Shown here: one piece after another, positions 99 to 11,358 of the stretch | Numbering within the stretch: position 1 is the stretch's first letter | Layout: each line of letters opens with the position of its first letter | Origin: Phyllobacterium sp. 21LDTY02-6 | GTDB lineage: Bacteria > Pseudomonadota > Alphaproteobacteria > Rhizobiales > Rhizobiaceae | NCBI RefSeq assembly: GCF_023554255.2 | Contig: NZ_JAMJWD020000002.1 | Coordinates: 372,001 to 436,000, forward strand | Length of the DNA: 64,000 nucleotides | Direction: 5' to 3' | Notes under the pieces: model-generated | What the model saw: only the letters and a program-made list of their open reading frames with translations | What the model was told of the DNA's origin: nothing | The model's database searches: none | Program-made: the position numbers and the translations under genes

Positions 99-1088
99 AT
101 GCATGTGATGGTTATCGGTGCAGCCGGTATGGTTGGCCGCAAACTGCTCGACAAGCTTGCCGCAGAGGCGGGAATACTTGGCGGGGATATAGAGAAACTG
201 ACGCTCGTCGACGTCATCGAGCCGCTCGCGCCAGCCGGATTTGCAGGCAATTGCATATCAAAGGCCGCCGATCTGGCCGATCCCGGCGTCGCGGAGCAAT
301 TAATCACGGCGCGCCCGGACGTGATATTCCACCTGGCGGCCATCGTATCCGGCGAAGCCGAGGCTGATTTCGAGAAAGGCTACCGGGTCAATCTGGACGG
401 AACGCGCGCCATATTCGAAGCGATCCGGCTCGAATCCAGGAAGGCTCCGTACCGTCCGCGCGTGATCTTCGCGTCTTCCATCGCGGTGTTCGGCACGCCC
501 TTCCCCGACAAGATCGGCGACGAATTCTTCACCACGCCGCTGACCAGCTACGGCACTCAGAAGGCGATCTGCGAACTCCTGCTGTCGGATTACAGCCGCA
601 GGGGCTTCTTCGATGGTATCGGCATCAGGCTTCCGACGATCTGCATCCGTCCCGGAAAGCCCAACAAGGCAGCATCCGGCTTCTTCTCCAACATATTGCG
701 CGAGCCATTGTCGGGACAGGAAGCCGTTCTGCCGGTCGACGAGAGCGTGCGGCACTGGTTCGCGTCTCCGCGCGCGGCCGTCGGCTTCTTCATCCATGCC
801 GCGACGCTGGACCTCGAAAAGGTCGGCCCGCGCCGCAACCTGTCGATGCCCGGCCTTTCCGCACTCGTCGGCGAAGAAATAGAAGCCTTGAAACGCGTTG
901 CCGGTGAAAAGGCCGTGCGCCTCATCCGCCGGGAGCCGGACCCGACGATCCAGAAGATCGTTGCGGGCTGGGCGACCGATTTCGACGCCACCCGTGCGGC
1001 AAAACTGGGCTTCAAGGCTGAAACCGCCTTCGACGAAATCATTCGCGCCCATATCGAGGACGAACTTGGCGGAAAGATTCCTGCATGA
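99..1088 (+). CDS. NAD-dependent epimerase/dehydratase family protein, D-erythronate dehydrogenase (DenD)-like
   Basis: An extended-SDR oxidoreductase of 329 residues, probably oxidising or epimerising a sugar or sugar acid in the cytoplasm. The N-terminal dinucleotide-binding motif GAAGMVG, the ASS catalytic serine segment and YGTQK (YxxxK) are all intact. The ATG at 99 is chosen over an earlier in-frame codon because GGGAGGAA sits just upstream. Its stop overlaps the next SDR start by 4 nt (ATGA), so it is the first gene seen of a catabolic operon with a sugar importer. DenD likeness is from overall resemblance; the substrate is unknown. The 98 nt before it may hold the operon promoter, but I cannot assign one. 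Confidence 0.8.
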
Positions 1089-1858
1089 GCATTCAAGATT
1101 CAGGCAAGGGCAAGATCGCCCTCGTGACCGGCGGCGGAACCGGCGTCGGCAAGGCCATCACCACGGCGCTTCTCGGCGTCGGCTATACGGTCGTCATTTC
1201 CGGCCGGCGCAAGGATGTCCTTGACGCTGCCGCCAAGCAGCTTGCCGACGAGACGAAGGGCAAGGTGGTGGCGTTGACGGCGGATGTAAGCGACGCCGCA
1301 TCGGTCGCGGCGCTGTTCGCTTCCATCAAGCAGGAGTTCGGCCGGCTTGACCTGCTCGTCAACAATGCCGGCGTCAATGTCCCGAATGTTCCTATCGACG
1401 AACTCGACGTCGCGCACTGGAATGCCATTGTCGGCGCCAACCTCACCGGCGTATTCCTGTGCACCCAGCAGGCGGTGAAGCTGATGAAGTCCCAGTCGCC
1501 GCGCGGTGGCCGCATCATCAATAACGGCTCGATATCGGCGCAGACGCCGCGCCCGAACACCGCGCCCTATACCGCGACCAAGCATGCCGTGACAGGTATG
1601 ACGAAATCGACGGCGCTCGATGGGCGGGCATTCGATATCGCTTGCGGCCAGATCGATATCGGCAATGCTTCAACGGACATGACATCGAAGATCGCAACGG
1701 GCATTCTACAGGCGAATGGCGAGACGGCAGCGGAGCCGACGATACCGGCAAAACACGTCGGCGATGCGGTCGTCTACATGGCAAGCCTGCCGCTTGACGC
1801 AAATGTGCTGACAATGACCGTAATGGCTACCAAAATGCCCCTGGTGGGACGCGGATAA
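1085..1858 (+). CDS. SDR family oxidoreductase with atypical C-terminal half
   Basis: A classical short-chain dehydrogenase of 257 residues. TGGGTGVG binds the cofactor, NNAG stabilises the fold, and a serine 13 residues before the YTATK tyrosine completes the Ser-Tyr-Lys catalytic set. The usual segment after the catalytic lysine, which normally ends in a Pro-Gly motif, is replaced by [11 protein letters not shown], and the C-terminus ends in the unusual [14 protein letters not shown]. It is translationally coupled to the preceding DenD-like gene and lies just ahead of the importer genes, so it probably acts on the imported sugar or its derivative. The reaction is not predictable from sequence. 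Confidence 0.85.
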
Positions 1859-1912
1859 AACGAATGGACGGCATGGGAGAGATGCAGTCCAGGCATAATC
1901 GGAGGAGAACGC

Positions 1913-2977
1913 ATGGCATCAGTTGAATTCGCCAATGTACGGAAATCATTCGGGACGCACCCTGTCATCAAGGGCGTCGACATCGAGATCGCCGATGGCG
2001 AATTCGTTATTCTCGTCGGCCCCTCGGGCTGCGGGAAATCGACCTTGTTGCGCATGCTCGCCGGCCTTGAGAACATCTCCGCCGGAGAAATACGCATCGG
2101 CGGCCAGGTGGTGAACAATCTGGCGCCGAAAGAACGCGACATCGCGATGGTCTTCCAGAACTACGCGCTCTATCCGCACATGACGGTAGCCGACAACATG
2201 GCGTTCTCGTTGAAGCTGAAAGGCGCGGCTCGATCGGAGATCGACAAGCGGGTGAAACCTGCCGCCGAGATCCTTGGGCTGACGCCGCTTCTCGACCGTT
2301 TTCCCCGGCAATTGTCGGGCGGACAAAGACAGCGCGTCGCCATGGGGCGTGCCATCGTGCGCGACCCGCAAGTGTTCCTGTTCGACGAGCCGCTCTCCAA
2401 CCTCGACGCCAAGCTGCGCGTGGCGATGCGCGCCGAAATCAAGGAATTGCACCAGCGGCTGAAAACGACCACCGTCTATGTCACCCACGACCAGATCGAA
2501 GCCATGACCATGGCCGACAAGATCGTGGTGATGCATGATGGCATTGTCGAGCAGATCGGGGCGCCGCTGGAACTATACGACCAGCCGGCCAATCTCTTCG
2601 TGGCAAGCTTCATCGGGTCGCCTGCCATGAACATGATCAAGGGCAAGCTCGATCCCGACAGTGCGTTGAAATTCAAGTCTGAAAGCGGTGTCGAGCTGCC
2701 GGTCGCCAAAGCGCCGGAAAGCGCCAAGGGCCGCAACCTCATCTACGGCCTGCGTCCGGAGCACATGACGATCGCCGCCGGCGGCATTCCGGCCGAGGTG
2801 GTGGTTATCGAGCCGACCGGGTCGGAGACGCAGATGATCATGCGTGTCGGCACCGATCTCGTCACCGGCGTATTCCATCAACGCATCAGCGCCAAACCCG
2901 GCGAGAAGATCGGCCTGTCGATCCATGCCGAAGCCACCTACCTCTTCGACGCCGAGACGGGGAAGAGACTGGTATAA
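1913..2977 (+). CDS. Sugar ABC transporter ATP-binding protein (UgpC/MsmK/MalK type)
   Basis: The ATPase subunit of a carbohydrate importer, 354 residues, cytoplasmic. It has Walker [10 protein letters not shown], the signature [14 protein letters not shown], Walker B VFLFDEP and the H-loop VTHDQ, followed by a roughly 120-residue MalK-type C-terminal TOBE/OB domain. A GGAGGAG ribosome-binding site precedes the ATG. It lies directly upstream of the matching binding protein and two permeases and should power them. MalK-type C-terminal domains can carry regulatory functions; none can be assigned here. Confidence 0.93.
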
Positions 2978-3089
2978 CCGACAAGACGGCGGCCGCCATT
3001 CGGGGAGCGGCAACCGGACGAGAGTCCCCGAGACCGGGCTTCAAAATGTGGGAGCGTTTTGAGCGGCCTTTAACAAAGGAGGAGCATCA

Positions 3090-9922: not shown

Positions 9923-9938
9923 ACTCGTTCCATGAGGA

Positions 9939-9959
9939 ATTATCGTCTATAGCGATAAT
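9939..9959. promoter_or_regulatory. Palindrome, possible operator upstream of the MFS gene
   Basis: ATTATCG, a 7-nt spacer, then CGATAAT: two 7-bp arms in dyad symmetry 65 nt upstream of the MFS start. The adjacent sequence adds GCGC-TTTC-GCGC (9961-9972) and CATTC-GT-GAATG (9972-9983). The arrangement fits a repressor site, but no regulator gene lies in the operon within this window. Confidence 0.4.
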
Positions 9960-10023
9960 CGCGCTTTCGCGCATTCGTGAATGATGCCCTGGCCGATTGG
10001 CCATGTGGCAGAGGAGATATTCA

Positions 10024-11358
10024 ATGTCATCAACCAAAGCTGCGCATCCCCCGCAGAAGGCGCCGGCTGGCGCCAGCAAGGTTCGCTATATCATCCTGGT
10101 CATGTGCTTCCTGGGCCTGACCATGAATTACCTGGACCGCGCCAATCTGAGCGTGGCCCTGCCTTATATCGACGCTGAACTGAATCTTCAGCTCACCAAT
10201 GCCGAGAAAGGCCTGATCTTCGGCGCCTTTTTCTGGGCCTATGACGGAATGATGCTGATCGCCGGCTGGTTCACCGACAAGGTCGGAGCCCGGCGCTCAT
10301 TTTCCATTGCCGCCGTCTGGTGGTCGATCTTCACGGCGCTGACCCCGCTTGCAACAAGTTTCTGGGGCTTCTTCGGCGTTCGTTTCGCCCTCGGCGCCGG
10401 TGAAGCGCCTGCCTATCCCAGTGCGACGAAGGCAGCATCCCGCTGGTTTCCGAGCAGCGAGCGGGCGTTCGCCACCGCGGTCATCGATTCGGGTTCGCGC
10501 GTCGGTACGGTTCTCGCCCTGCCCGTCGTCACGTCGATCATCGCGCTGACGACGTGGCACTATTCGTTCATCATTCTTGGTGCGCTTGGTCTCGTCTGGG
10601 CGGCATTCTGGTTCTGGATGTACCGCGATCCTTCCGAACATCCCCGCGCCAACGATCTCGAGCGCCAATATATCAGCGACAATGGCGGAAGGACGGAAGA
10701 GAATGACGATGCCGAGGCGGTCAAAATCCGTTGGCGGGACCTGTTCCGCTACCGCACCGTCTGGGGCATGATGATCGGCTTCTTCTGCCTGAACTTCGTC
10801 ATCTACTTCTTCCTGACCTGGTTCCCGGACTATCTGAAGAATGCGCGTGGCCTGAATCTCGCCGAGCTCGGCACTCTGGGCATGCTTCCCGGATTGACGG
10901 CCGTCGTTGCCGCATGGACGGCGGGCATCTGGGCCGACCGACGCATCCGCAATGGCGCCGATGTCACCCTCGTGCGCAAGACGATCATGGTGGGCGGTCT
11001 GCTCGGTGGCGCCGCCATCCTGCCCGCCGCGTTGGTATCGTCGGTCTATTCGGCGCTGTTCTTCCTGGCGATCTCCTATAGCAGCCTGGCTGTCGCTGCC
11101 ACGGCGATCTGGTCGCTTCCGGCCGACGTCGCGCCAAGCTCCCATCATGTGGCGTCTATCGGCGGCATCCAGAACTTCGCATCGAACATTGCCGGCATCA
11201 TCAGCCCGTTCCTGTTCGGCTTCCTGCTCGATATGTTCAGCGGCAATTATGTCCCGTCATTCGCCATGGCTGCCGGTGTCGCCGTCATCGGTGCGTTCAA
11301 CTACGCATTCGTGGTAGGTCGCGCAGAACCTCTTCCGGTGCTGAAGCCGCGCGGCTGA
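10024..11358 (+). CDS. MFS transporter, anion:cation symporter (sugar-acid) family
   Basis: A 12-helix inner-membrane transporter of 444 residues. The N-terminal NYLDRANLSVALPYI and the loop GWFTDKVGARRS (between helices 2 and 3) are typical of the ACS family, which includes glucarate, galactonate and hexuronate permeases. AGAGGAGAT precedes the ATG at 10024; an upstream ATG at 9997 lacks such a site. It probably lets the cell import the sugar acid directly, complementing the ABC importer for the parent sugar. A strong terminator follows 19 nt after its stop. Confidence 0.9.
   Translation: MSSTKAAHPPQKAPAGASKVRYIILVMCFLGLTMNYLDRANLSVALPYIDAELNLQLTNAEKGLIFGAFFWAYDGMMLIAGWFTDKVGARRSFSIAAVWWSIFTALTPLATSFWGFFGVRFALGAGEAPAYPSATKAASRWFPSSERAFATAVIDSGSRVGTVLALPVVTSIIALTTWHYSFIILGALGLVWAAFWFWMYRDPSEHPRANDLERQYISDNGGRTEENDDAEAVKIRWRDLFRYRTVWGMMIGFFCLNFVIYFFLTWFPDYLKNARGLNLAELGTLGMLPGLTAVVAAWTAGIWADRRIRNGADVTLVRKTIMVGGLLGGAAILPAALVSSVYSALFFLAISYSSLAVAATAIWSLPADVAPSSHHVASIGGIQNFASNIAGIISPFLFGFLLDMFSGNYVPSFAMAAGVAVIGAFNYAFVVGRAEPLPVLKPRG

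Follow-up and report, generated by a model that had tools for sequence, protein, structure and literature searches.

The stretch analysed here, called the window throughout, comprises 64,000 nucleotides of Phyllobacterium sp. 21LDTY02-6 (contig NZ_JAMJWD020000002.1, positions 372,001 to 436,000; G000:C5:372001-436000 in our numbering of genomes and contigs), whose genome of 4.6 Mb lies in 12 contigs. It begins with a putative operon of ten genes, in which a DenD-type dehydrogenase, an unassigned short-chain dehydrogenase/reductase (SDR1) and an ABC importer are followed by an IlvD/Edd dehydratase, a second SDR (SDR2), a FAH-family hydrolase and an MFS carrier (Table 1). The open reading frame (ORF) list and hidden Markov model (HMM) scans agree with the original prediction, which had been made from the letters without database searches: all ten genes are intact, lie on the + strand in the order given there, and include both of the proposed uptake systems, the ABC importer and the MFS carrier. 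The denD and sdr1 reading frames share 4 bases. The lack of a lactonase, a kinase and an aldolase remarked upon there holds for the ten genes (coverage of the remaining window consisted of an ORF list and an HMM scan of five proteins), and HMM scans found no mutarotase or enolase-type fuconate dehydratase among the ten either.

Table 1. The ten genes of the operon and the features that border it (window positions)
Feature	Position	Strand	Remarks
Putative operator of the LacI-type regulator	46-59		Palindrome TGGCAGCGCTGTCA between lacI and denD
denD	99-1088	+	NAD-epimerase-type dehydrogenase, D-erythronate dehydrogenase family; YGTQK motif at Tyr151
sdr1	1085-1858	+	SDR dehydrogenase without assigned function; Tyr162-x3-Lys
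ABC importer ATPase	1913-2977	+	UgpC subfamily
ABC importer solute-binding protein	3090-4406	+	
ABC importer permease 1	4566-5477	+	
ABC importer permease 2	5496-6389	+	
IlvD/Edd sugar-acid dehydratase (ilvD)	6429-8231	+	PRK13017 subfamily; alternative in-frame start possible at 6393
sdr2	8245-8997	+	SDR, predicted L-2-keto-3-deoxyrhamnonate (L-KDP/L-KDR) 4-dehydrogenase type
FAH-family hydrolase (fah)	9029-9868	+	Closest solved relative is L-2,4-diketo-3-deoxyrhamnonate hydrolase (8gsr)
MFS carrier	about 10024-11358	+	Nearest the D-galactonate transporter subfamily, under its cut-off
Terminator-like hairpin	11378-11403		Two-way, between the operon and the opposing tamB

Three consecutive genes, ilvD, sdr2 and fah, make up a candidate non-phosphorylative sugar-acid module. 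The dehydratase carries the Pfam domains PF00920 and PF24877 and scores 1058 bits against PRK13017 (cut-off 684); it keeps Cys61, Cys129 and Cys202, which we take to be the three cluster cysteines, an SGTSG motif at 493, and His600 as its last residue. A C-terminal histidine is described as conserved in sugar-acid dehydratases (PMC11316719). The genome holds just two other IlvD-like matches, 33% and 28% identical. A second IlvD-family gene of the window (18816-20591; 33% identity to the operon IlvD) probably encodes the biosynthetic dihydroxy-acid dehydratase. In SDR2, the triad Ser144, Tyr157 and Lys161 is accompanied by Lys209 and Arg247, the residues named for 6D9Y, a putative L-2-keto-3-deoxyrhamnonate (L-KDR) dehydrogenase (PMC11199699). 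Across 33 aligned entries, in which the window protein appears twice and some other genes are also duplicated, Lys209 is found in 32 (one has Arg) and Arg247 in all 33. The best PDB matches of SDR2 are 9jve, 6d9y and 9kq1. The entries 8y11 and 8xwk, which appear to be L-2-keto-3-deoxyfuconate dehydrogenases (L-KDFDH; the PDB listing says SDR family), are not among the 60 shown of its 77 matches, whereas the SDR of a FucD locus does match them; 4dqx, placed near type 2 L-KDFDH (PMC11199699), ranks ninth. By these marks SDR2 is predicted to be a 4-dehydrogenase of the L-rhamnonate/L-arabinonate type (LRA5 type).

The FAH protein has the catalytic HxxE motif (His82-x-x-Glu85). The Herbaspirillum FAH-type hydrolase C785_RS20550 has His83 and Glu86; together with a dehydrogenase it is reported to take pentose intermediates to pyruvate and glycolate, the glycolate being formed from D-2-keto-3-deoxypentonate (D-KDP) by C785_RS13675 and the hydrolase, and the dehydrogenases C785_RS20555 (L-KDP/L-KDR) and C785_RS13675 (D-KDP/L-KDF) are described as very strict in their stereoselectivity (PMC6336799). 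The MFS carrier is nearest the D-galactonate transporter subfamily of NCBIfam (298 bits, cut-off 395). In its acid-sugar dehydratase, its L-KDP/L-KDR-type SDR and its HxxE hydrolase the operon resembles Route III (C785_RS20555 and C785_RS20550 of Herbaspirillum, LRA5/LRA6 of Sphingomonas), and pyruvate and a 2-hydroxy acid would be the expected products; family and motif matches thus support the non-phosphorylative branch that had been proposed. Unlike Route III, the operon has no mutarotase or lactonase and no recognised aldose dehydrogenase, although SDR1 could be one, and DenD, SDR1 and a four-carbon-type ABC importer precede the module, whose hydrolase stays under its curated cut-off. An AraA-like dehydrogenase (50%) is encoded elsewhere in the genome (C6:52634). 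DenD, as the original prediction observed, lies outside the textbook route.

IlvD sugar-acid dehydratases are strict at C2 and C3. The configuration at C4 is the same in L-arabinonate, D-galactonate, D-fuconate and L-rhamnonate, while D-xylonate and L-fuconate have the other, and the predicted type of SDR2 fits the former group. The neighbourhoods of the dehydratase, collected as 80 ilvD-centred stretches from family genomes and six plasmid loci, fall into three main kinds: most commonly a lone ilvD near core genes (76-86% identical), then L-arabinose or D-galactonate operons, and then loci with denD. Homologues of 76-79% are found in three Azospirillum plasmid L-arabinose operons, and homologues of 76-77% in six loci with DgoK-type genes (identified by eye) and DgoA-type genes (model-confirmed for one). 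The Azospirillum operons (Gfo/Idh/MocA dehydrogenase, SMP-30 lactonase, IlvD, DHDPS-type dehydratase and α-ketoglutarate semialdehyde dehydrogenase) differ from ours in having a Route II-type DHDPS protein and an aldehyde dehydrogenase in place of SDR and FAH, and a ChvE/Ggu importer. SDR2 carries Lys209 and Arg247, and L-arabinose and D-galactonate operons contain relatives of the dehydratase (76-79%); an acid of the L-arabino/D-galacto series is therefore the likeliest substrate, and would yield pyruvate and glycolate, D-lactate or D-glycerate. The L-fucose/L-rhamnose branch first suggested is thereby kept for the L-rhamnonate/L-arabinonate/D-galactonate stereo-series, and its L-fucose half is disfavoured by the SDR2 residues and the dehydratase relatives. 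D-xylose, like L-fucose, is disfavoured as substrate by the type of SDR2.

The front half of the operon has a different kinship. DenD scores 375 bits against the NCBIfam D-erythronate dehydrogenase model NF043036 (cut-off 325), and the ATPase scores 513 bits against the UgpC subfamily model (cut-off 432); PDB relatives of the solute-binding protein are too distant for naming its ligand, and the solved structures nearest to SDR1 (4dry, 4dyv and 9x6i) come without a substrate in the PDB listing. The neighbourhood comparison of sdr1 proposed earlier was run on the best 80 loci with an SDR1 relative, counting genes within 7.5 kb. Eight carry denD, the importer and OtnK (L025, L027, L038, L039, L054, L056, L057 and L060; locus numbers are ours), seven more have denD and OtnK without this importer (L013, L019, L020, L023, L040, L041 and L045), and others have denD and the importer with some or none of the OtnK-type genes. 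One example each of OtnK, OtnC and LtnD from the surveyed loci exceeds its NCBIfam cut-off, and the OtnI example is slightly under (301 vs 325). For erythronate and threonate, Brucella is described as having an operon in which denD is accompanied by ltnD, otnK, otnI and otnC (PMC10580937). Since denD, SDR1 and the importer co-occur with Otn genes in Rhizobiales loci, the front end of the operon (LacI regulator, DenD, SDR1 and ABC importer) is, on sequence comparison, that of a rhizobial four-carbon acid-sugar locus, so that SDR1, DenD and the importer are not the lone oddities they had seemed. Unlike the DenD/LtnD-OtnI-OtnK-OtnC pathway for D-erythronate and L-threonate, the operon has IlvD-SDR2-FAH after the importer and lacks OtnI, OtnK and OtnC.

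SDR1 relatives of 61-68% identity also occur in Acidobacteria, Methylobacterium, Microvirga, Pseudomonas and others; next to most of them no denD was found. SDR2-like proteins (58-60%) lie near denD and the importer in seven stretches (L025, L029, L039, L060, L214, L216 and L218, of which L029 and L216 are possibly one contig); Arg247 is present in all seven and Lys209 in all except L214, and four of the seven loci have OtnK. These proteins are a further unexplained partner of four-carbon acid-sugar loci.

The joining of the two halves is conserved. The order from denD to fah is unchanged in six stretches of near relatives (L005, L006, L007, L128, L129 and L130, the last possibly from the same genome as L007), which argues that the gene set is not a product of chance; the MFS gene follows downstream in L007, L128 and L130 and was not found in place in L005, L006 and L129. 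Each of the 20 genus genomes has denD and ilvD on a single contig, 5.3-5.6 kb apart (in G008 the IlvD alignment covers residues 1-479 only). Among 121 genomes of the family, 73 (69 of 109 genera) have a close denD, and in at least 16 of these 73 (15 genera) an ilvD lies within about 10 kb of it, against approximately 0.3 expected under random placement; this count comes from coordinates or fetched stretches, and coordinate-based counts are lower bounds. Eleven of these 16 ilvD genes are at least 74% identical to ours and five are 61-62% identical. A FAH gene stands no more than 15 kb from denD in 12 of the 73 genomes (about 0.6 expected). Sequence was read for 60 of the 77 denD stretches, the other 17 entering through coordinates alone; among the 60, IlvD or FAH occurs in 13, OtnK or OtnC in 14, both in 1 and neither in 34.

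A DenD tree of 112 rows, built by a quick method, places the genus of the window as one starred clade within an Otn-rich starred set of 49 rows, while ten IlvD-linked rows form a separate starred clade and the IlvD label needs 7 changes. The tree includes ilvD-centred stretches, which are enriched for ilvD by design, so its counts are not frequencies, and in three of them (L165, L181 and L190) denD and ilvD are on opposite strands and maybe chance neighbours; these three bear the IlvD label in the tree and are not counted in the 16 of 73. Pairings of DenD with IlvD occur in at least two well-separated parts of the tree, and more than one lineage has thus acquired or retained a DenD associated with the IlvD module. 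A plasmid locus of Nitratireductor kimnyeongensis, whose DenD belongs to the separate IlvD-linked clade, reads IlvD-DenD-GntR-SDR-FAH-oxidoreductase with LtnD and ABC genes on the other strand. It shares the enzyme set of our operon, DenD again lying next to IlvD and FAH, and its importer is related to ours (77-83%), but it differs in gene order, in having GntR rather than LacI and an extra hydroxyacid-type dehydrogenase, and in that no sdr1 was detected in the stretch. A search for convergence of the window DenD towards the IlvD-linked clade came to nothing: a single position is shared, and two other clades gave 0 and 1, the latter being a clade that has IlvD-linked rows of its own.

Two further kinds of denD locus were seen. 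One (L222, L223, L226, L228 and L237) has a denD of 69-72% accompanied by a hydroxyacid-type dehydrogenase and by an IlvD less closely related to ours (61-62%). The other (L246, L248-L254, L259, L260, L266, L268 and L272) has a denD of 59-65%, an SDR1-like protein of 54-60% and often a fucose-locus-like SDR, with no Otn or IlvD genes detected, and together with L263 it forms one separate clade of the DenD tree.

OtnI, OtnK and OtnC are absent from the ten-gene operon, and the genome has an otnC-otnI-otnK group at C7:184444-189237 (homologues of 56% for OtnC, 40% for OtnI and 44% for OtnK). Within the genus, OtnK (E <= 1e-20) is found in 15 of 20 genomes, one of them (G018) at just 30% identity, and OtnC in 14. 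OtnC and a close OtnK were not found in 6 of the 20 (G003, G006, G007, G013, G016 and G018), and the DUF1537 kinase domain was not found (E <= 0.001) in four (G003, G007, G013 and G016, of which G007 is 88% complete). All six genomes without OtnC and close OtnK retain the denD-ilvD linkage, as judged from the whole stretch in G013 (L128) and from the positions of denD and ilvD in the others. In species without OtnK and OtnC, no outlet is known through which the known product of DenD would be consumed, an argument for DenD serving the IlvD module.

A LacI-type regulator gene, with LacI domains found by HMM scan, faces denD divergently just beyond the window edge (L004:10936-11961, - strand); its start is uncertain, and a longer ORF extends to window base 60. 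A perfect palindrome, TGACAGCGCTGTCA, stands at the position of the putative operator in 2 of the 6 relatives (L005 and L129), and a degenerate copy approximately 54 bases upstream is common to the window and four relatives (L005, L006, L128 and L129). In L007 and L130 the upstream region differs, with an LtnD gene intervening. Scanning the genome with one mismatch allowed gave a single further match, which lies on C8; the otn group of C7 had no match. Because the window, scanned with up to 2 mismatches, gave 1 match against 0.23 expected (at least one match in 21 of 100 shuffles), the candidate operator is argued from its place and conservation, not from rarity. Control of the operon by LacI is probable. 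Beyond lacI lie genes for a glycerol-type regulator, a glycerol-3-phosphate dehydrogenase and an ABC importer (identified by eye). At the other end, tamB and an Omp85-family gene, both ordinary, adjoin the operon on the - strand (11428-17999).

Taken at a probability of about 0.5, our preferred reading is that of a LacI-controlled operon through which aldonates are imported and cut by IlvD, SDR2 and FAH without a phosphate step (Route III), with pyruvate and a small hydroxy acid as products. Uptake of the aldonates would fall to the ABC importer and the MFS carrier. IlvD would then dehydrate a 2R,3S acid with the L-arabino/D-galacto configuration at C4 (L-arabinonate, D-galactonate or D-fuconate) to the 2-keto-3-deoxy acid, SDR2 would oxidise its C4 hydroxyl to give the 2,4-diketo acid, and the FAH protein would hydrolyse this to pyruvate and glycolate, D-glycerate or D-lactate. 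DenD and SDR1, with their overlapping genes, would be an oxidising front end inherited from a four-carbon acid-sugar locus, and, as part of the same regulon, may act on some of the imported acids by oxidising or re-configuring them. The earlier proposal that these two enzymes oxidise the free sugar, or a side-product such as a tetronate, may hold, though neither a lactonase nor a mutarotase is encoded by the ten genes. The sequences show which genes are present, their order, their active-site residues and the recurrence of denD beside ilvD; we infer all of these reactions, the substrate and the role of LacI, above all the DenD and SDR1 steps.

Several results weigh against this reading. The dehydratase falls below the NCBIfam cut-off for L-arabinonate dehydratase (PRK13016, 527 vs 882 bits) and in the PDB comparison has its higher score with the Caulobacter D-xylonate dehydratase (5oyn, 821 bits), the Rhizobium L-arabinonate dehydratase (5j83) giving 476. 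The best model of the FAH protein, 2,4-didehydro-3-deoxy-L-rhamnonate hydrolase (NF053535), is matched under its cut-off (432 vs 500 bits), and plasmid relatives of 76-82% stand in other gene settings in the five loci examined (one is a FucD L-fucose locus, one has a mandelate-racemase-type gene, two from Azospirillum have an aldolase-type gene, and one is of the leuCDB/SDR/SMP-30 kind), so that FAH alone does not name the substrate. No ilvD or FAH was detected in the seven stretches with SDR2-like proteins near denD. Mutual exclusion of the Otn and IlvD/FAH modules in the 60 denD loci is not significant (Fisher p = 0.26). Finally, the ten-row IlvD-linked clade differs at 12 positions from 38 close relatives that belong to the Otn-rich clade, and at all 12 the window DenD agrees with those relatives, and hence gives no sign of a changed substrate.

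The residues of DenD at these 12 positions, together with the SDR2-like proteins near denD without ilvD or FAH, make two pathways under one switch a serious rival, which we regard as possible though doubtful. DenD, SDR1 and the importer would here feed OtnI, OtnK and OtnC, whose genes lie elsewhere, and the substrate of IlvD-SDR2-FAH would be an acid of five or six carbons, the common control being explained by plant debris that supplies both kinds of acid. The homologues of OtnC, OtnI and OtnK that lie together on C7 agree with this, as does DenD, which passes the D-erythronate dehydrogenase model and sits in the Otn-rich clade with its relatives' residues kept, and L-threonate is described as a major breakdown product of plant ascorbate (PMC12540250). 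It is opposed by the 6 of 20 genus genomes that link denD to ilvD without OtnC and a close OtnK, by the failure to find the operon's operator at the otn group, and by the presence of DenD beside IlvD in other genera and clades. Unlikely, in our assessment, is a kinase-free four-carbon route, in which importer, regulator and DenD were taken over and IlvD-SDR-FAH replaces OtnI-OtnK-OtnC: L-threonate (and D-erythronate after re-configuration by DenD and SDR1) would be dehydrated by IlvD to 4-hydroxy-2-oxobutanoate, oxidised at C4 by SDR2 to 2,4-dioxobutanoate, and split by FAH to pyruvate and formate. The importer, DenD, SDR1 and the regulator family are indeed common to loci of the Otn and IlvD types, but to our knowledge the oxidation of a primary alcohol is not usual for the group of SDR2, which counts against this route. 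The literature points both ways, as a bacterial L-arabinonate dehydratase has been used to obtain 4-hydroxy-2-oxobutanoate from L-threonate (PMC11199699) and the IlvD-type PuDHT is reported to accept L-threonate, but the Rhizobium L-arabinonate dehydratase is given as inactive on it (PMC11316719), and L-KDF dehydrogenase, an SDR of the pathway other than the type of SDR2, left 4-hydroxy-2-oxobutanoate unoxidised (PMC11199699).

A textbook pathway for L-fucose (or D-arabinose) is very improbable. A FAH relative of 78% does lie in a Neorhizobium locus that also contains fucD and genes for a rhamnose-type mutarotase and an amidohydrolase, but the SDR of that locus differs, matching 8y11/8xwk best where SDR2 matches 9jve/6d9y and has L-KDR-type residues, and the enolase-type fuconate dehydratase, mutarotase and lactonase are all missing from the ten genes. 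That the FAH protein acts in aromatic ring breakdown and is a mere neighbour, an outcome the original prediction had named as refuting it, is hardly credible: the family is broad, and HpaG-type models also match, under their cut-offs, but the best model and the best structure are those of a sugar-acid hydrolase and the ilvD-sdr2-fah order is kept in relatives.

Among the matches listed, no description of denD paired with IlvD-SDR-FAH was found in titles and abstract openings of the open-licence literature. DenD beside IlvD-SDR-FAH recurs across this bacterial family, a pairing so far without explanation. If our preferred reading, a LacI-controlled Route III operon with an inherited four-carbon front end, is true, it would give the orphan SDR encoded by sdr1 a job and would show two acid-sugar pathways exchanging parts. 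It would also be a warning against calling every DenD-family protein a D-erythronate dehydrogenase from the model score alone.

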